This document shows positions 1,289 through 15,895 of a stretch of DNA of 17,733 nucleotides, piece by piece (position 1 is the first letter of the stretch; each line of letters begins with the position of its first letter). The position numbers were made by a program, and so were the translations under genes. Below the pieces are notes generated by a model, which worked only from the letters and a program-made list of their open reading frames with translations, was not told the origin of the DNA and ran no database searches. The stretch is from Gemmatimonadota bacterium (GTDB lineage: Bacteria; Latescibacterota; UBA2968; UBA8231), in the NCBI GenBank assembly GCA_028875335.1, contig JAPPEF010000157.1:1-17733 (forward strand). Direction: 5' to 3'.

Positions 1289-2434
1289 ATGCGTTTAATG
1301 AGCTTGTTGTTCAGTGTGGTCGCTATGCTGCTGTTGGCCAATTCTGTTTACGGCCAAGCGATGAACAGGATTCTTTTTGGATCAGACCGCGACGGCACGC
1401 CTGAGATCTATGTGATGGATGCAGATGGGACCGACCTCGTCCGACTCACTACGGACGCTTGGGTTCAGATTGCACCTGTGACAGAAGTTGCTAGCCTTGC
1501 TTGGTCCCCCGATGGAACAAAAATAGCCTTTATAGCAAACCGAGTGGGTGCCCGGCAGATTTATGTGATGAATGCGGATGGAACCGGCCTCGTTAGATTG
1601 ACGGATCATCTCGTTGGGAATGGAGCGCCGGCGTGGTCACCGGATGGACGCCAGATCGCCTTCACATCGCGACGCTTCGGCAATGATGAGATTTTTGTGA
1701 TCAATGTGGATGGAACGGAGTTGGTGAATAGGACCTACCATCCGGCTGATGATGCGGCCCCCGCGTGGTCGCCGGACGGGCGCTGGATCGCCTTTACTTC
1801 CAATCGCTCGGGCAATAATGAGATTTATATGATGAATACCGAGATCGAAGAGTGGCGCTATTCGCGCAAGGACGGGGTAGAAGTAAGCGAAGAGGGCTAT
1901 AATAAGCTCCCATCTATGTTAAAAGGGCAGGTAATTGCGTTGGGGGCGGATCTCATCCAATTAACAGACCATCCGGCGGACGACATCTCTCCTGCGTGGT
2001 CTCCGGATGGGAATCGACTTGCCTTTACCTCCAATCGCTCGGGTGATAATGAGATTTATATAATTGATCCAGACGCTGGGGAGCAACGCTATTTTCGCAA
2101 GGATGGGACAGAAGTGAGCGCTGAGGACTACAATAAACTCTTACCTTTTTTGAAAGGGGAGATGATTACAAGGGCTGCGGATCCCCTCAATGTGACCAAC
2201 CACCCAGCCGATGATGGGTCTCCGGTTTGGTCGCCAGACGGAGGCCAAATTGCCTTTACCTCAACCCGCGATGACAATGGGGAAATTTTTGTAATGAATG
2301 CGGACGGGACCAACCTGATCAACATAACCAATCATCCGGCGGGAGACGCTTCTCCCGCATGGTACCCCATTGGAGTGACAATGACGAATGTCGAAGCAAA
2401 GTCGTGGGGACAGATTAAAGCCGAAGTGCATTGA
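1289..2434 (+). CDS. Secreted TolB-like (PD40/WD40-like) beta-propeller protein with C-terminal WGxIKA motif
   Basis: A 381-residue protein. ATG 1289 is preferred because AAGGAGG at 1276-1282 stands six bases before it and a signal peptide follows directly; an in-frame TTG at 1262 lies upstream of that ribosome site. Residues 1-22 form a signal peptide ending VYG before QA. From about residue 27 there are six repeats of the PD40 type, with cores such as PAWSPDGRQIAFTS, NDEIFVIN and LTDHPADD, and a final PAWYPIG that may close the ring. The propeller is thus probably six-bladed, as in TolB. Blades four and five each carry an extra 37-residue insert (residues 185-221 and 262-298). The last residues, TNVEAKSWGQIKAEVH, match the end of the unrelated protein encoded at 13111-14025. 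There is no N-terminal TolB domain, so this is not TolB itself; it is likely an exported binding or scaffold protein. Confidence 0.85.
   Translation: MRLMSLLFSVVAMLLLANSVYGQAMNRILFGSDRDGTPEIYVMDADGTDLVRLTTDAWVQIAPVTEVASLAWSPDGTKIAFIANRVGARQIYVMNADGTGLVRLTDHLVGNGAPAWSPDGRQIAFTSRRFGNDEIFVINVDGTELVNRTYHPADDAAPAWSPDGRWIAFTSNRSGNNEIYMMNTEIEEWRYSRKDGVEVSEEGYNKLPSMLKGQVIALGADLIQLTDHPADDISPAWSPDGNRLAFTSNRSGDNEIYIIDPDAGEQRYFRKDGTEVSAEDYNKLLPFLKGEMITRAADPLNVTNHPADDGSPVWSPDGGQIAFTSTRDDNGEIFVMNADGTNLINITNHPAGDASPAWYPIGVTMTNVEAKSWGQIKAEVH
1841..1951 (+). repeat. Propeller insert, copy 1 (37 codons)
   Basis: Residues 185-221 of the beta-propeller interrupt blade four between its third and fourth strands. 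The core reads RYSRKDGVEVSEEGYNKL, then LKG. By eye, 21 of 37 positions are identical to copy 2 at 2072-2182, and the lengths are equal. The other blades have a short NADGT-type turn at this place. Confidence 0.8.
2072..2182 (+). repeat. Propeller insert, copy 2 (37 codons)
   Basis: Residues 262-298 interrupt blade five at the equivalent place. The core reads RYFRKDGTEVSAEDYNKL, then LKG. The copies are 231 bases (77 codons) apart, which is one blade plus one insert. This points to duplication of a whole insert-bearing blade followed by divergence. Confidence 0.8.
2384..2431 (+). other. C-terminal WGxIKA motif, copy in the propeller protein
   Basis: Residues 366-381 read TNVEAKSWGQIKAEVH. 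Nine of the first twelve-to-thirteen positions are identical to TAVEEKTWGHIKA in the CBM9-like protein encoded at 13111-14025. The segment follows the last propeller strand and lies at the extreme C-terminus in both proteins, as a sorting or anchoring tag would. Confidence 0.7.
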
Positions 2435-9730: not shown

Positions 9731-11653
9731 ATGTACTTGCGAAAGTTGTCGATATGGAGTGCACTGGGCATGGCGGTGCTCGTCGCCTGTGGACAGCAGG
9801 AGCCGAGCGCCCAAAAGGAGGCATTGCCGCTGGCTCAGGTGGGTGAAGAATTGATCACGGATCGGGACATACGCTACCTGATCGACAATGTGGCCGAGTG
9901 GGCCAAGAGCGATCAGGAGGGCGGCGCAAAGGTGCGCGAATACTTGCAGTCGCTGATCGATCGGACGCTTATTCTCCGAGAAGCGCGCGCCGGCAAATTA
10001 GACCGGAGTCCGGCGTTTGTCAGCGAGGTGGCGACGGCCCTGCGGCGGCGGTTGATACGAGAAATTGAGCAGCGCGCCGTCGATAATCAGGTTGACATTA
10101 CCGAGGAGGAAATGCGGCGCGTCTTTGCCGAGCAGAACTGGGAGCGCTGGATCAAAATCGCCCACATCGTCGTACCCACCCAGGAGCGCGCCGAGGAGGC
10201 GATGGCGGCTTTGCGGGCCGGTACACCCTTTGAGGAAGTAGCGCGCGAATTTTCGACCCATTCGCGCACGGCCTCGCTCGGGGGCGTGAAACCCATGTAT
10301 TACAGCCGCTTCCACGCCGTTCCACTGGTGCGCGATGTACTCTTCAGCCTCAAAGTAGGGGAAATATCAGAGCCCATAGCCGTCCCCCAAGGCTACGAAA
10401 TTTTCAAGGTCCTAAGCGAGTTGCAAGGAACCTACGAGCAAACTAGGGACTTTCTCTTTAAAACACTGTCCGAAGAACGATTGGACGCTCGCAGAAAGGC
10501 GTATGCGGATTCGCTGGCTGAGCAGTTCCAATTGACTCCGGATCCGCACGGTTTGGGCGTCCTGATGGGAATATTGCGCGGTGGTGGGGAGGAGCCGGAG
10601 ACCGGCAAAAAGACATTCCAGATTCCAGAAGGTGCCGCTGAGACGCCTCTCTTCAGATATGCAGGCGGACAGATCTCGCTTGGGGAAGCCATCTTGCAAT
10701 CCCCGTTCATTCGCCAAGGCAGAAACGTATCCGACAGTGTGAGAGTGGCCCATTTTCTAGAGCGCGACGTAGTAATCCCGCAACTCATGTGGATGGAGGC
10801 GGACAAATTGGAGCTGGACCGCGAACTCGAAGAATGGGTCAAGCGCAAGGAAGAAGAAGTGCTGATTGTGACCATGCGCCGGATTGCCACTTCTACCGAA
10901 GAAGAGATAAGCGAACAAGAGGTACTCGATTACTACGAAGAAACCAAGGATCAGTACCGGACCGCCTCGGAGGTGAACGTGGTAGAGATTCAGTTGGCCA
11001 GCGAGGGTGAGGCCGAGGCACTGCTCGCCGAGATTCGCGGCATCTTCCGCCGGGCTCCTCCTTTGATCGACCTGCTCACCAAGATGAAACAAAAGCAGCA
11101 GGCCGGGCGGGACCTGACGGAGGAGGTACGGGCGTTGCGGAAAATGGACGACGATCTCGAGGTTCTGGAATGGCTCCGCCAGCGGTTGGACGAGCGGGGC
11201 GGAGTAGAGACGGTTCTAGAGGAAATAGCTACGGCATCGAGTCCAAAAGAGTTGGCCGAAGAGTACATCATGCGGCAACTGGCCAGCACCCGCAGTCTGC
11301 GGCCGGGCGCTAGCGAAACAGAGGGGCACTACCATCTCTACTGGTACGAGACGGCGCGCTTTGGGGATTTGGTCACAGCGGCCTTTGAGGGGGAAATCGG
11401 CTCGCTCATCGGTCCCATTCAGGTCGGACCTTCCTATTCTGTTGCCAAAATTCTCAGTCGGCGGGAATCAGCAGCGCGCCCTTACGAAGAACGCGAGAGG
11501 CAGATACGAGCTAATATCCGCAAGGAGAGAGAGAGAGAATTGTTCGGGAACTGGTTGAAAGACCTGCGCACCTCGTACGAAGATGAAGTGCGCTATTTCG
11601 ACGATAACATCGAAAAATTGGGTCGGGAATTGACCGCGGAAGGGCGCGGCTAG
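9731..11653 (+). CDS. Peptidyl-prolyl cis-trans isomerase lipoprotein (SurA/PpiC type, two parvulin regions)
   Basis: A 640-residue protein from ATG 9731, with AGGAGAG at 9721-9727. Residues 1-20 are a lipoprotein signal with lipobox LVAC (Cys20). The next residues are GQQ, without the Asp that retains lipoproteins in the inner membrane of enterobacteria, so an outer-membrane location is likely. Residues about 35-130 are a SurA-like helical chaperone region (ITDRDIRYLIDN, LQSLIDRTLILREA). A standard rotamase domain spans about 136-228, with IKIAHIVV, GTPFEEVAREFS, and GEISEPIAVPQGYEIFKVL. A second, degenerate domain spans about 397-580. Its first strand (EVNVVEIQLA) and closing part (IGPIQVGPSYSVAKIL) are separated by a charged helical insert of about 80 residues. 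The tail is charged. It folds envelope proteins and starts 11 bases after the importer genes. Confidence 0.88.
   Translation: MYLRKLSIWSALGMAVLVACGQQEPSAQKEALPLAQVGEELITDRDIRYLIDNVAEWAKSDQEGGAKVREYLQSLIDRTLILREARAGKLDRSPAFVSEVATALRRRLIREIEQRAVDNQVDITEEEMRRVFAEQNWERWIKIAHIVVPTQERAEEAMAALRAGTPFEEVAREFSTHSRTASLGGVKPMYYSRFHAVPLVRDVLFSLKVGEISEPIAVPQGYEIFKVLSELQGTYEQTRDFLFKTLSEERLDARRKAYADSLAEQFQLTPDPHGLGVLMGILRGGGEEPETGKKTFQIPEGAAETPLFRYAGGQISLGEAILQSPFIRQGRNVSDSVRVAHFLERDVVIPQLMWMEADKLELDRELEEWVKRKEEEVLIVTMRRIATSTEEEISEQEVLDYYEETKDQYRTASEVNVVEIQLASEGEAEALLAEIRGIFRRAPPLIDLLTKMKQKQQAGRDLTEEVRALRKMDDDLEVLEWLRQRLDERGGVETVLEEIATASSPKELAEEYIMRQLASTRSLRPGASETEGHYHLYWYETARFGDLVTAAFEGEIGSLIGPIQVGPSYSVAKILSRRESAARPYEERERQIRANIRKERERELFGNWLKDLRTSYEDEVRYFDDNIEKLGRELTAEGRG
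11525..11538 (+). repeat. (GA)7 dinucleotide tract inside the isomerase gene
   Basis: Seven perfect GA units, 14 bases, lie near the 3' end of the isomerase lipoprotein gene and encode an alternating Glu/Arg stretch (KERERE). A gain or loss of one unit would shift the frame about 40 codons before the normal stop. Confidence 0.9.
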
Positions 11654-11710
11654 GCTGGTGGGGCATAGATAAAACTCGACCCGATTGTCTTATCGGTTTA
11701 ATCGCTAAAA

Positions 11711-12811
11711 ATGGATCGAATCGAGATTGGCGGTAAGCTGCTGTTGGTAGTTGCCAGTTTGGCCGTTACCGCGCTCGCCATTGAAGTCTCTTTTTGGCTG
11801 TTGGCCCGGTCCGAGCGGATCTATCCCTTGGTCTATTACGCGACGGACGATCCAAATCTCGATCTATGGTGCTACGATGAACACTTTGCGGGCACTCCCG
11901 ACTGGGATCTGCGGCGAGCACATCCGTATGGGAAGTTGACCTCTCTGGGCAATGCCAACAATGATTCCACCCTCGCCAATCTAGCGCCGCTCAAAGTGCC
12001 CAATGCCATTGAAATGCGCCGCAACGAAGAGCAACTGCGCGAGCGGCCGATGGCTGAGTTCGACGCGCAAAATGCCAAAATCGTCCTAGTAATCGGCGAC
12101 TCCTTTGGCTTTGGGCAGGGGGTCCGGGTCGCGGAGCGCTTTTCGAATGTTTTGGAGATCCGATTGAATCGGGAGCGCCCAGCGGAGCGCTATCAGCTCT
12201 TCAATGCCTGTGTGCCGGGCATGAATATCAAACAGATCGCCAAGACCATGGAGCGCTATGTCGAGTACTTTGCTCGGGTCGAGCGCGTCGTGTATTCGTT
12301 TACCCTGAACGATCCATTCAGGAGCGGGCGTCTGCTGGAGATGGAAAGGGAACTGGCCGATTTTATGCACTTGCGATCCAACGCAGAGTCAGTCCGATTT
12401 CTGGCGGGGCGGAATAGCTATGCGCTCCGTTGGTTTGCCGCGCGCTTAGAGAGACGGCAGATCTCCCGAGACACTGTTGAGTGGTACCGACAACTCTACA
12501 AAGATAACCTAGGCTGGACCCTGACCCGGAAGTTGCTCAGCAAAATGAAGAAATCCTGCGCCGATAGGGGTATTAAATTCTCTTTGGTCGTCTTCCCCGT
12601 GTTCTACCAACTCAAAGCCTATCCCCTAACAGAGGTGCACAAAACGCTTGGGGCACTTGCTCAGCACGAAGGGATACACTACGTTGATCTCCTCGCTCAA
12701 TTTGCCGGCAAGGACGAACGGGATTACTGGGTCCACCCGACGGATTTTCACCCCAATAGTCGAGCTCACAGGGAAGCGGGGGATTTTCTGTACGACGCGA
12801 TTCCTTGGTAA
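11711..12811 (+). CDS. Membrane-anchored SGNH/GDSL hydrolase-like protein
   Basis: A 366-residue protein from ATG 11711. No clear ribosome site stands before it. Residues about 8-31 form an uncleaved signal anchor, so the catalytic part should face the periplasm. SGNH blocks can be placed. Block I is VIGDSFGFGQGV with Ser131. Block II Gly is in VPGMN (Gly170). Block III has Asn200 in TLND. Block V is PTDFHPNSRAH with Asp345 and His347 near the C-terminus. Such proteins are esterases or O-acetyl transfer/removal enzymes acting on polysaccharides or lipids. The long segment between the anchor and block I (residues 40-120) is unassigned. It lies 57 bases after the isomerase gene and could share its transcript. 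Family call is good; substrate unknown. Confidence 0.8.
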   Translation: MDRIEIGGKLLLVVASLAVTALAIEVSFWLLARSERIYPLVYYATDDPNLDLWCYDEHFAGTPDWDLRRAHPYGKLTSLGNANNDSTLANLAPLKVPNAIEMRRNEEQLRERPMAEFDAQNAKIVLVIGDSFGFGQGVRVAERFSNVLEIRLNRERPAERYQLFNACVPGMNIKQIAKTMERYVEYFARVERVVYSFTLNDPFRSGRLLEMERELADFMHLRSNAESVRFLAGRNSYALRWFAARLERRQISRDTVEWYRQLYKDNLGWTLTRKLLSKMKKSCADRGIKFSLVVFPVFYQLKAYPLTEVHKTLGALAQHEGIHYVDLLAQFAGKDERDYWVHPTDFHPNSRAHREAGDFLYDAIPW

Positions 12812-12868
12812 AGCCAATGCGAAATCGGACGCGGAGGGATGCGGACAGGCTATTCGGGCAAAAAAATC

Positions 12869-12898
12869 TTGATTTTCATCCGTCGAATTTTGTATCAT
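12869..12898 (+). promoter_or_regulatory. Sigma70-type promoter candidate for the CBM9-like gene
   Basis: TTGATT at 12869-12874 and TATCAT at 12893-12898 are separated by 18 bases. They match consensus at four and five of six positions. A start near 12905 would give an untranslated leader of about 205 bases containing both tandem repeats and the hairpin. A run of seven A bases (12860-12866) just upstream could act as an UP-like element. Confidence 0.5.
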
Positions 12899-12910
12899 AA
12901 CCCTATCTAT

Positions 12911-12930
12911 ATTTTACCTCATTTTACCTC
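12911..12930 (+). repeat. Perfect tandem repeat of a 10-mer (ATTTTACCTC x2)
   Basis: ATTTTACCTC occurs twice without a gap. The 10-base period is close to one DNA helical turn, so a protein binding both copies would sit on one face. The repeat begins about six bases after the predicted transcript start, where an operator could act. Confidence 0.9.
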
Positions 12931-13018
12931 GCGTCAAAGACAGCGCCGGAATGTTTTCGGTAGGCGGTATAAATAAACTTTTAAAAATCAATATCTTGTG
13001 ACAGAAAGGAGGTGCCCC

Positions 13019-13040
13019 TTTTCGTCGGATTTTCGTCGGA
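13019..13040 (+). repeat. Perfect tandem repeat of an 11-mer (TTTTCGTCGGA x2)
   Basis: TTTTCGTCGGA occurs twice without a gap, starting five bases after the AAAGGAGGTG sequence. A looser relative, TTTTCATCCGTCGA, occurs at about 12873-12886 within the promoter spacer. Repeats of about one helical turn suggest a binding site for DNA or, in the leader, RNA. Confidence 0.9.
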
Positions 13041-13057
13041 GTAAATCAGCTTAGAGC

Positions 13058-13073
13058 CTGGGCCTAAGCCCAG
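13058..13073 (+). other. Leader hairpin before the CBM9-like gene
   Basis: CTGGGC (13058-13063) pairs with GCCCAG (13068-13073) around a CTAA loop, six pairs with five G-C. No T-run follows, so it is not a terminator. It ends 24 bases before the GGAG ribosome site at 13098-13101 and could stabilise the 5' end of the message or take part in control of translation. Confidence 0.45.
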
Positions 13074-13110
13074 ACGTTTCACATTGACCTCAACCTCGGA
13101 GTTTAAAACC

Positions 13111-14025
13111 ATGAAGAAAGTTGCCCTTATTGCTGGAGCTATTTTAGTCTCCACTACTTGCTGGGCCCATTTGCCCGAAGGGGTGGTGAGGCCGGCTGTT
13201 CAATTCCCCACCGGACACCTTCCCATCATCGACAGTGATCTGTCCGATTGGGATGTGGTTACTGATCCCTATTTGATCACCCACGAGGATTTGACCGAGA
13301 CGGTGACCGGATTGGGCACTCAGCGCGATGCCGCGGACTTGGCCTTGCGGGCCTTCGTCGGTTGGAGCCCGGAGACCAACAAAGTCTATATCATGGAAGA
13401 CCGCTGGGACGACGCTGTCTGGGTGGGCGATAACAGTTGGGAAAACGCCAAAGGCAGTGGCTGTACCGGCAATGCCCGCGATTTCCTAGAGATCCAGATC
13501 GACGGCGACCACAGCGGCGGTCAGTTTAACTCTTGGAACGACGATTCCCTGACCCAGGAAGAAAAGGATATTCTGCACGGCCAGCAGGCCCAGGGGTACG
13601 GTCTGCGCCCGAACGGACGCTACGCTTGGCACAAGACCTACGAGCATGCCTTGCCACCGTTTGGCGACGCAGCCTTCTCCTGTACCAACGGACCAGGGGA
13701 GCCCGGCAACTTCTATGCCGAGTATGCCTATACTCCGTGGAACGATCTGCGCTGGACCGACGTACCGAACAGCGTCCAGCACATTCTCAAAGAAAATGAG
13801 ATCTTCGGTTTCAACTTCACGGTCTTGGATTCGGACACTGGCGGCGGCTACGATGGCTACTGGACTTTGAGTGGCGACACCAATAGCTGTCACCACGCCG
13901 ATTTCCTCAGCGACTTTTATCTGAGTCCGGTTGATCCCGACATCGACTGGGCCTCGCAAGTCCGAGCGGGCACGGCGGTGGAGGAAAAGACCTGGGGCCA
14001 TATAAAGGCCACCTTTGCCGAGTAG
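13111..14025 (+). CDS. Secreted CBM9-like protein with C-terminal WGxIKA motif
   Basis: A 304-residue protein. ATG 13111 is preferred over an in-frame TTG at 13084: GGAG at 13098-13101 lies nine bases upstream and MKKVALIAGAILVSTTCWA is a clean signal peptide cut before H20. The mature part from about residue 36 resembles the carbohydrate-binding family 9-like fold. It opens with PIIDSDLSDWDVV (the usual start is 'i.iDG.l.dW'). Then come KVYIMEDRWDDAVW, a central DFLEIQIDGDHSGG (residues 124-137), and FGFNFTVLDSDTGG. Two or more Cys (118, about 195 and later) could form disulphides after export. Residues 288-300 read TAVEEKTWGHIKA, the tag-like motif also ending the propeller protein. Its own promoter, long leader and strong terminator suggest separate and perhaps high expression. 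Ligand unknown. Confidence 0.8.
   Translation: MKKVALIAGAILVSTTCWAHLPEGVVRPAVQFPTGHLPIIDSDLSDWDVVTDPYLITHEDLTETVTGLGTQRDAADLALRAFVGWSPETNKVYIMEDRWDDAVWVGDNSWENAKGSGCTGNARDFLEIQIDGDHSGGQFNSWNDDSLTQEEKDILHGQQAQGYGLRPNGRYAWHKTYEHALPPFGDAAFSCTNGPGEPGNFYAEYAYTPWNDLRWTDVPNSVQHILKENEIFGFNFTVLDSDTGGGYDGYWTLSGDTNSCHHADFLSDFYLSPVDPDIDWASQVRAGTAVEEKTWGHIKATFAE
13972..14022 (+). other. C-terminal WGxIKA motif, copy in the CBM9-like protein
   Basis: Residues 288-304 read TAVEEKTWGHIKATFAE. The identities with the propeller protein's end are T, V, E, K, W, G, I, K and A in register. Codons differ at many of the identical residues (for example GTC/GTG and GAA/GAG), so the similarity is held at protein level and is not a recent DNA copy. 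Confidence 0.7.
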
Positions 14026-14064
14026 TTGCACTGCGCAGTAGAGGTTTGGCTGCACATGATCGCC

Positions 14065-14107
14065 ATGCCGCCATGCCGAGAGTTTCTTCTGGCATGGCGG
14101 CATTTTT
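14065..14107 (+). terminator. Strong intrinsic terminator after the CBM9-like gene
   Basis: A perfect 13-pair stem joins ATGCCGCCATGCC (14065-14077) to GGCATGGCGGCAT (14091-14103) around a 13-base loop, followed at once by a T5 run (14103-14107). The left arm lies in a tandem GCCATGCC repeat (14062-14077). The hairpin begins about 40 bases after the stop codon. Only 42 bases separate the T-run from the next ATG, so some readthrough may feed the following gene. Confidence 0.9.
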
Positions 14108-14149
14108 GTATACGTGGTAGCATGGCACCGAAAGGGGCAGGAGTTGCAG

Positions 14150-15895
14150 ATGAGGAGAGATTGTTCAATCTCGCGGGTTTACCGGCCCCTGCTAGTGCCG
14201 CTCTGGTTGGCGCTGGCGGCGGCAGCCCAGGCTGCAGATATCCGGGTGGTTGGCGGTGGTGCCGGTGGGGAGAGTTGGGAGGAGCGCGCCGAAGCCGCGC
14301 CGATCATTGATTTTACCAGCCGCCCTGGGTGGATCCTGCCCAGTTTTATCGATACTACCACCAACATCGCCTCGGGGACTTTAGCGCGTGGTGGCAGAGT
14401 GGTCTCGCCAAATGCCCAGGCCGTCTTGCGGGGCGACAAGGAGACGCTGGCGGCAAACCTAGAGAGCATGGTGGACGGAGATCCTCAGACGGCTTTTGAA
14501 GTCAAGAACATAACGGCTTCGGGCATTCTCGTGATCTTCGACCTAGGCGCTCGGTTCGGGGTGAATCGCATCCGCTTTTTCCCGCGCACCTCTTTTCCGG
14601 ATGACTTCATGAGGGGCTATGCGCTCTTCATCAACGACGGTATTTTCGGGGCTGAATTCGTAGCCGAGTCCGTCGACGGGCTGCCGAGTAAAAACCTCTT
14701 CGCCCAGATAGATCAGCAGACCGGCAATAGCCAGGATACTGTAAACGTGCAGTTCCCCTTGCGCTATGTGCGCTATCTCCTGTTACAGGCCACGGACAGA
14801 TCCAATTGGGAAATTGACGAGATTGAAGTCTTCGGTCGGGGTTTTGTCCCCGAGGCCGACTATTTGTCCCAAGTCTTCGACTTCAATCAACCCACGCTCT
14901 GGGGCCAACTGCACTGGGCGGCCGAGGCCGTGGGACATCCCGAAAAGTCCCGGTTTTTCATCCGCACTCGCAGCGGTAGCAGTCCGTCTCCTACAGATGA
15001 ACCGGACGCTTGGAGCCCTTGGTCCGCTCCCTACCTGAGCGGAAATACCCCGATTCTTTCGCCAGCACCCAGGCAGTACTTCCAGTTCCGCTTGGACTTT
15101 GAAAGCGACGGTCTGGGGGATGGTACCGCAGTGGATTCGCTGGCGTTTGAATTTTCCGATCCAGTGGCGGAGTCCATAGTCGGGGAAATATGGCCCCAGA
15201 ATGTACCGGTCGGGGTGGATACGACCTTTACTTATGCCGTCCAAGTGGCCGGCGGCCGAGGTTTCGACCACTTGGAGATCGATAGCTCTGTTCCGGTGCA
15301 TACGGTTCGGTCGCTGCACCTCGACGACTTGGAGGTGGAGGATTTCGTCGCGGAATCCCACGAGAGCGGCTTGACTGTGACCTTTCCCCACCAGAGCGGC
15401 AACCACGATCTGCGGATGGTTTTCGACGCCGCGATTTTGCGCTACGAGACGGTTTTCAGTGGGCGCCTGCGCGACAGCCAGTCGGACGGTTTGCCCCAGG
15501 AAATTGAAGAAGGGGACGCAGCGGGATCTATGCTCGGCGACGATCTGAGCGTGCGGGTGCCGCTGAATCAGGACCCCGTCGTCCACCGGGTGACCGTGAC
15601 ACCCAACCCTTTTACGCCCAATGGAGACGGGATCAACGATCAGACGACCATTAGCTACGATCTACTGCACTTGATAAACGACGTTCCGGTTTCTTTGCAG
15701 GTCTACGACCTAGCCGGAAGACAAGTGGCGGAATTGCCGGTGGGAAAAAACCAGAGTGGGCGTCATCTGGTGCACTGGAACGGCCAGAATGACCAAGGTC
15801 GATATCTGCCGCCGGGACTTTACGTCTTGCAGGTAAAAGTGGCAACGGACAGCGGCACAGTGAGCCGCAGCAGTTCTGTCGCAGTCGTCTATTAG
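14150..15895 (+). CDS. Secreted discoidin-like protein with C-terminal FlgD-like Ig domain
   Basis: A 581-residue protein. ATG 14150 has AGGAG at 14139-14143 six bases upstream; an in-frame GTG at 14114 lies before that site and is rejected. Residues 1-28 are a signal peptide ending AQA before AD. Residues about 92-234 look like an F5/8 type C (discoidin) domain. Supporting pieces are NLESMVDGDPQTAFEV, ILVIFDLGARFGVNRIRFFPR (in part), and RYLLLQATDRSNWEIDEIEVFG. The middle region is beta-rich and unassigned. Residues about 480-581 are a FlgD-like Ig domain of the kind that ends many exported FCB proteins, with VTPNPFTPNGDGINDQTTIS, LQVYDLAGRQVAEL, HWNGQNDQGRYLPPGLYVLQ (in part). It probably binds glycan at the cell surface. 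The next gene, for a barrel-like protein, starts 18 bases after the stop. Confidence 0.83.
   Translation: MRRDCSISRVYRPLLVPLWLALAAAAQAADIRVVGGGAGGESWEERAEAAPIIDFTSRPGWILPSFIDTTTNIASGTLARGGRVVSPNAQAVLRGDKETLAANLESMVDGDPQTAFEVKNITASGILVIFDLGARFGVNRIRFFPRTSFPDDFMRGYALFINDGIFGAEFVAESVDGLPSKNLFAQIDQQTGNSQDTVNVQFPLRYVRYLLLQATDRSNWEIDEIEVFGRGFVPEADYLSQVFDFNQPTLWGQLHWAAEAVGHPEKSRFFIRTRSGSSPSPTDEPDAWSPWSAPYLSGNTPILSPAPRQYFQFRLDFESDGLGDGTAVDSLAFEFSDPVAESIVGEIWPQNVPVGVDTTFTYAVQVAGGRGFDHLEIDSSVPVHTVRSLHLDDLEVEDFVAESHESGLTVTFPHQSGNHDLRMVFDAAILRYETVFSGRLRDSQSDGLPQEIEEGDAAGSMLGDDLSVRVPLNQDPVVHRVTVTPNPFTPNGDGINDQTTISYDLLHLINDVPVSLQVYDLAGRQVAELPVGKNQSGRHLVHWNGQNDQGRYLPPGLYVLQVKVATDSGTVSRSSSVAVVY

Follow-up and report, generated by a model that had tools for sequence, protein, structure and literature searches.

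The stretch of DNA analysed here, referred to as the window, is 17,733 nucleotides long and encodes two predicted exported proteins that end in a similar C-terminal tail, which we call the tag. The relevant features of the window are listed below.

1289..2434, + strand, tagged beta-propeller protein, predicted to be exported, 381 aa, with PD40 repeats and a signal-peptide-like N-terminus
2384..2431, + strand, C-terminal tag TNVEAKSWGQIKAEVH of the propeller protein, with the stop codon ending at 2434
9731..11653, + strand, PpiC-type peptidyl-prolyl isomerase found by domain search, a lipoprotein by eye (LVACGQ)
13111..14025, + strand, tagged CBM9-like protein, predicted to be exported, 304 aa, with the signal-peptide-like N-terminus MKKVALIAGAILVSTTCWA
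13972..14022, + strand, C-terminal tag TAVEEKTWGHIKATFAE of the CBM9-like protein, with the stop codon ending at 14025
14114..15895, + strand, untagged neighbour with a terminal FlgD_ig / CHU_C domain, a T9SS-type CTD (PF13860, E=6.9e-10; PF13585, E=1.2e-8)

The genes for the PpiC isomerase (9731-11653), the tagged CBM9-like protein (13111-14025) and the CTD protein (14114-15895) follow one another in this order. A gene for a class A beta-lactamase-like protein (PF13354, 2388-3431) lies directly behind the tagged propeller gene and overlaps its end, and the segment 4353-9719 resembles an ABC sugar-uptake operon, with a solute-binding protein followed by two permeases and two ATPases recognised by eye. 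The term "CBM9-like" is taken from the initial annotation as a label without a Pfam or NCBIfam family behind it; searches of both libraries with this protein returned no family.

The initial annotation had reported that the two proteins end alike, and both tails, TAVEEKTWGHIKATFAE and TNVEAKSWGQIKAEVH, were found where it had placed them. Recounting the ungapped alignment gave the same nine identical positions out of thirteen, so that the motif spans 13 positions and not the 12 residues of its title; at the DNA level, 27 of 39 bases match. Its statement that codons differ at the identical residues was correct for five of the nine and incorrect for the other four, one of which is Trp with its single codon. 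Both N-termini are indeed signal-peptide-like, and neither a membrane helix nor a basic cluster was seen in the tails inspected, as had been described. The tail of the CBM9-like protein recurs in 30 of 34 homologues among the matches listed, and the search with this protein led to three contigs, all from Latescibacterota or Latescibacteria. The tail of the propeller is also present on its close homologues P0035-P0064 and on others; the organisms named among the propeller homologues include Candidatus Latescibacteria. Eight further propeller homologues (P0088, P0094, P0095, P0113, P0115, P0145, P0149, and P0151) end in a tail resembling TLWGxVKRANT without V-E, which is possibly a sister tag.

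The nearest genome compared (G001) has 21% of the sampled 31-mers of the window in common with it. In this genome the DNA pattern for W-G-x-I-K occurred at 43 sites, versus 7 for the same pattern read backward. A profile (A1) was built from 31 tails, 29 from this genome and two from the window, and applied to OX638377.1, a complete Latescibacteria chromosome of 6.27 Mb (G065; G050 has identical coordinates). The initial annotation had named few, internal or homologue-confined hits as evidence against a sorting tag. Instead, A1 gave 63 matches at E≤1 in this single chromosome, of which 50 also reached E≤1e-3 (row G050), and in 61 of the 62 distinct ORFs read at the matched loci the match was C-terminal, with the invariant Trp 8-19 residues ahead of the stop. 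The lone exception, an ORF of 42 aa, is probably due to chance; the doubtful entries among the 62 are L126 (42 aa), L137 (36 aa), L128 (66 aa), and four ORFs truncated at a locus edge. When the 60 ORFs of at least 60 aa were clustered without their first 20 and last 30 residues, 15 clusters unrelated in sequence were obtained, comprising 31 CBM9-like proteins, 13 propellers, a third group of four proteins, and 12 singletons; because the clustering was based on sequence, some clusters may have a common fold. Confinement to homologues was thus contradicted by the 15 clusters, although two families account for 44 of the 60 proteins. Among the CBM9-like paralogues, the mean share of the top residue was 0.62 in the last 16 columns versus 0.40 elsewhere. 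These results indicate that the tag is more than a chance recurrence.

The consensus was T-A-V-E-x-x-[ST]-W-G-x-[IV]-K-[AS]-x-[FYL], or about TAVExxSWGxIKxxF, in a tail of roughly 16-20 residues. Across 198 non-redundant tails, the residue shares were 0.77 for T, 0.87 for V, 0.78 for E, 0.95 for G, 0.94 for I or V, and 0.85 for F/Y/L, whereas the constancy of Trp and Lys follows from how the tails were picked. The view that the tail is undescribed was borne out for the model libraries: the 27 of the 31 A1 tails that were long enough to scan matched no NCBIfam or Pfam family at E≤10. A full-text literature search for the motif strings of the tag returned no paper, and the titles and opening lines of abstracts among the papers listed held no mention of it. 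In searches of solved structures, the best E was 0.35 with the tag profile and 0.8 with the CBM9-like profile.

The CBM9-like protein of the window gave an AlphaFold2 model that is poor as a whole (mean pLDDT 56.2) and in which the last 21 residues were below 50. In the better model of a tagged LTD protein (mean pLDDT 73.8), residues 192-204 were likewise below 50 and included a single short helix (196-200). According to these models, the tag sits outside the fold in two unrelated proteins. A fold search with the CBM9-like model gave nothing at E≤0.001; ranks 4 (nitrite oxidoreductase subunit 7b04_C) and 9 (ethylbenzene dehydrogenase subunit 2ivf_C) fit a CBM9/DOMON-like fold, which we do not claim because the model is poor (mean pLDDT 56).

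Signal peptides were called with home-made lenient and strict rules, not with SignalP, on the 55 tagged ORFs of at least 100 aa with a complete N-terminus. The lenient rule was passed by 55/55 and the strict rule by 49/55, versus 47/66 and 62/117, respectively, of untagged control ORFs, which were neighbouring ORFs, many of them exported-looking themselves. The expectation that tagged proteins carry signal peptides therefore largely held, though it is shared in part by the untagged neighbours. The contrast is real but modest, since exported proteins are abundant in tag neighbourhoods. A lipobox-like site was present in one of the 55 tagged ORFs. As for the initial proposal of an export or retention tag, the C-terminal position on diverse proteins of exported type was confirmed, and an action in export or retention would be a reading of the sequences.

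The spread of the tag to other phyla and its link to the T9SS go beyond what the initial annotation had reported. Within the phylum, 35 of 64 genomes had an A1 match at E≤1e-3, among them every one of the 25 in the nearest family. A profile rebuilt to include tails from outside the phylum (A3) matched 36 of the 64. Families f7 to f10 gave no tag match with either profile among the in-phylum genomes, and family f4 gave one single match despite many FlgD_ig matches. Outside the phylum, a profile seeded almost wholly with in-phylum tails (A2) was positive in 16 of 322 genomes from 12 families, with 1 to 33 matches each at E≤0.01, and A3 in 23 of 322 from 16 families, 15 genomes having two or more matches and eight having one; the largest per-genome counts in the A2 and A3 surveys are to be read as at least 23. 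In 32 of 33 outside-phylum ORFs, read from 29 loci, the match lay no more than 7 residues from the C-terminus; the remaining ORF (L212) is probably a chance match. The tag was found in other phyla on LTD, beta-helix, Big_5, LVIVD, and other proteins. The LTD-domain protein of one such genome (G275) had 171 homologues; the tag was present on 120 of 120 among the matches listed, Trp stood nine residues from the end in 98 of the best 120 of the 171, and three of those listed were named Candidatus Eisenbacteria. Taken together, the tag is real, C-terminal, present in several phyla, carried beyond any set of homologous proteins, and absent from two model libraries.

The occurrence of the tag was compared with that of sprA, the sole T9SS component profiled (SprA_N, PF14349, E≤1e-3). 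SprA_N was found in 60 of 64 phylum genomes, in 0 of 14 control genomes, and in 142 of 386 genomes of the wider set, 136 of them above the curated cut-off. Outside the phylum, all 23 A3-positive genomes had SprA_N versus 82 of 322 overall (Fisher 1.6e-15), as did all 16 A2-positive genomes (Fisher 9.5e-11); these values ignore kinship beyond the counting of families (16 for A3, 12 for A2). Within the phylum, SprA_N was present in 34 of 36 tag-positive genomes, the other two being G003 (78% complete) and G045 (75% complete). Conversely, at the threshold used, the tag was missing from 59 of the 82 sprA carriers outside the phylum and from 26 of the 60 within it. Shared ancestry could explain part of this link. 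In the excerpt of a T9SS review, CTD proteins are called restricted to Bacteroidota (PMC10202324), so that the T9SS appears to be barely studied in the present phyla. SprA_N reaches nearly all Latescibacterota, unlike the CTD proteins in that excerpt (PMC10202324).

The tag and the classical CTDs exclude each other. In a pool of 2963 ORFs, 203 ended in the tag, 82 ended in a FlgD-type T9SS CTD, and none ended in both; likewise, none of the 27 readable FlgD_ig ORFs from 30 loci was tagged. Nine pairs of a tagged and a CTD-bearing protein from this pool were homologous upstream at E≤1e-5, amounting to about five domain groups, one of which is a weak match between repeat propellers. LVIVD repeats (Pfam), for example, were found in both L055 (tag) and L251 (FlgD_ig). 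Furthermore, four arrays show tagged propellers (PD40 or WD40) in alternation with FlgD-tailed proteins (FG-GAP/FlgD_ig). The number of tags correlated with that of FlgD_ig candidates (Spearman 0.76 over 64 genomes, 0.90 in the nearest family), the FlgD_ig counts per genome being first-look candidates and lower bounds.

Tagged and CTD genes are also neighbours. In OX638377.1, 12 of 61 tags had an FlgD_ig site on the same strand no more than 3.5 kb downstream, versus 1.4 expected by rotation (P=0.0004); this independent test used 86 listed FlgD_ig sites, and five of the twelve positives lie in one array. An either-side test within 4 kb gave 17 versus a null mean of 6.0, with the null reaching 21. 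A CTD gene lay within about 3.9 kb, on either strand, of 20 of the 31 tagged CBM9-like genes, as counted with a CTD model for which seven of ten seeds came from the loci then counted. The same model matched at 9 of 18 comparison loci (0 of the 4 sprA loci), which have no control value because they are mostly tag-bearing. The neighbourhood of a tagged CBM9-like gene and a CTD protein of 600-850 aa recurs (L272-L301 of OX638377.1, L233, and 9731-15895 of the window). It often includes genes for a PpiC isomerase, which recurs beside tagged CBM9-like genes at L277, L289, and L294, and for a lipoprotein about 260 aa long, and is present in many copies per genome. In this it is a little similar to SusC/SusD pairs.

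Several known C-terminal modules invite comparison. PEP-CTERM/exosortase, GlyGly-CTERM/rhombosortase, MYXO-CTERM/myxosortase, and LPXTG/sortase systems likewise mark exported proteins of varied fold with a short module at the C-terminus, which has a membrane helix and a basic end. The tag has neither their hydrophobic helix nor their basic end, and matched none of their models. T9SS CTDs of type A (PF18962/TIGR04183) and type B (PF13585/TIGR04131), as portrayed in excerpts of the T9SS literature, resemble the tag in being C-terminal, in occurring on Sec-exported proteins of varied folds by the dozen per genome, in accompanying sprA, and in having an invariant Lys near the C-terminus; the tag and these CTDs also exchange on homologous domains. 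They differ in that type A and B CTDs are Ig-like and about 70-100 residues long, whereas the tag has about 16-20 residues, no Ig fold, and an invariant Trp; accordingly, the tag tails did not match the type A and type B models. The type C CTD (ChiA type), given as about 100 aa in the excerpt of the review (PMC10202324), is a further signal class differing in sequence from types A and B, and the tag is far shorter. By the features that define CTDs, most tagged proteins have a predicted Sec signal peptide and their genomes the T9SS core gene (SprA_N), but the Ig-like domain is missing. The tag thus falls outside CTD types A, B, and C.

Certain properties of CTDs are nevertheless close to those of the tag. 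In the review excerpt, the type A CTD of HBP35 needed no more than its last 22 residues to bring about secretion of GFP, and lysines near its C-terminus mattered (PMC10202324). In the part consulted of a report on structures in Nature Microbiology, the almost invariant Lys near the CTD end contacts PorV, and the CTDs are bound as folded domains (PMC10994853). Given the 22-residue signal and the contact of Lys with PorV, it is plausible by analogy that a tail as short as the tag, with its invariant Lys, works like a T9SS signal.

Several lines of evidence thus connect the tag with the T9SS, and we give close to an even chance to the reading that the tag is a short sorting signal without an Ig fold that works in or beside the T9SS. 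Tagged proteins would be exported by Sec and their signal peptide cleaved; the flexible tail would then be recognised at the outer membrane by the T9SS or a T9SS carrier, and the protein would be handed to, or kept at, the cell surface. The tag would be a second class of signal alongside the Ig-like T9SS CTDs of the same genomes. Counted against this reading are the missing Ig fold, family f4, which is rich in FlgD_ig and almost tagless, and the many sprA genomes without a tag. The broader proposal is given slightly less credence: a new signal class, formed by a W-G-x-I-K tail of 16-20 residues without a folded domain and serving as an alternative T9SS signal or with its own outer-membrane receptor, would be used in Latescibacterota, Candidatus Eisenbacteria, and further phyla by tens of surface proteins per genome, including those of uncultured sponge symbionts.

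The main rival is that the tag serves for docking or retention and not for export. After transport by Sec it would bind a receptor, perhaps a surface scaffold, a protein of the outer membrane, or a partner exported by the T9SS, and complexes with the CTD neighbours would thereby form. This is unlikely, albeit a serious contender: the tail is predicted to be flexible and outside the fold, large CTD proteins adjoin the tagged CBM9-like genes in 20 of 31 cases, and the propeller arrays interleave tagged and FG-GAP/FlgD_ig genes. However, the tag is also carried by LTD, beta-helix, Big_5, LVIVD, and other proteins in other phyla, which makes a single dedicated partner unlikely, and its exchange with CTDs on homologous domains suggests equivalent roles. 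Less probable still is that the tag belongs to a separate system for sorting or quality control, passed down in part of the superphylum and with no working link to the T9SS. The 59 of 82 outside-phylum sprA genomes without the tag fit such a system, and the perfect nesting of tag in sprA carriers can be obtained from shared ancestry alone; on the other hand, sixteen families nest in this way, CTD genes adjoin tagged genes above the rotation expectation, and the tag and CTDs are mutually exclusive and interchangeable. Ordinary homology or chance, with the tail as the conserved end of paralogues, has hardly any probability left: CBM9-like paralogues and propellers do make up 31 and 13 of the 60 clustered proteins, but 15 clusters have no detectable upstream similarity, LTD and other families are tagged in other phyla, the pattern had 43 sites versus 7 in its control, and the last 16 columns of the CBM9-like paralogues are the more conserved (0.62 versus 0.40).

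If the tag is a T9SS signal, the cargo of the T9SS would extend past proteins with Ig-like CTDs, and tens of surface proteins per genome could be predicted in uncultured phyla. If it is not, an undescribed receptor would be left to find. According to the excerpt of a study of sponge symbionts, few lineages have recognised secretion systems, yet eukaryote-like repeat proteins are many (PMC8163846). Tagged WD40 and PD40 propellers together with sprA would offer a concrete and testable export route in these genomes.
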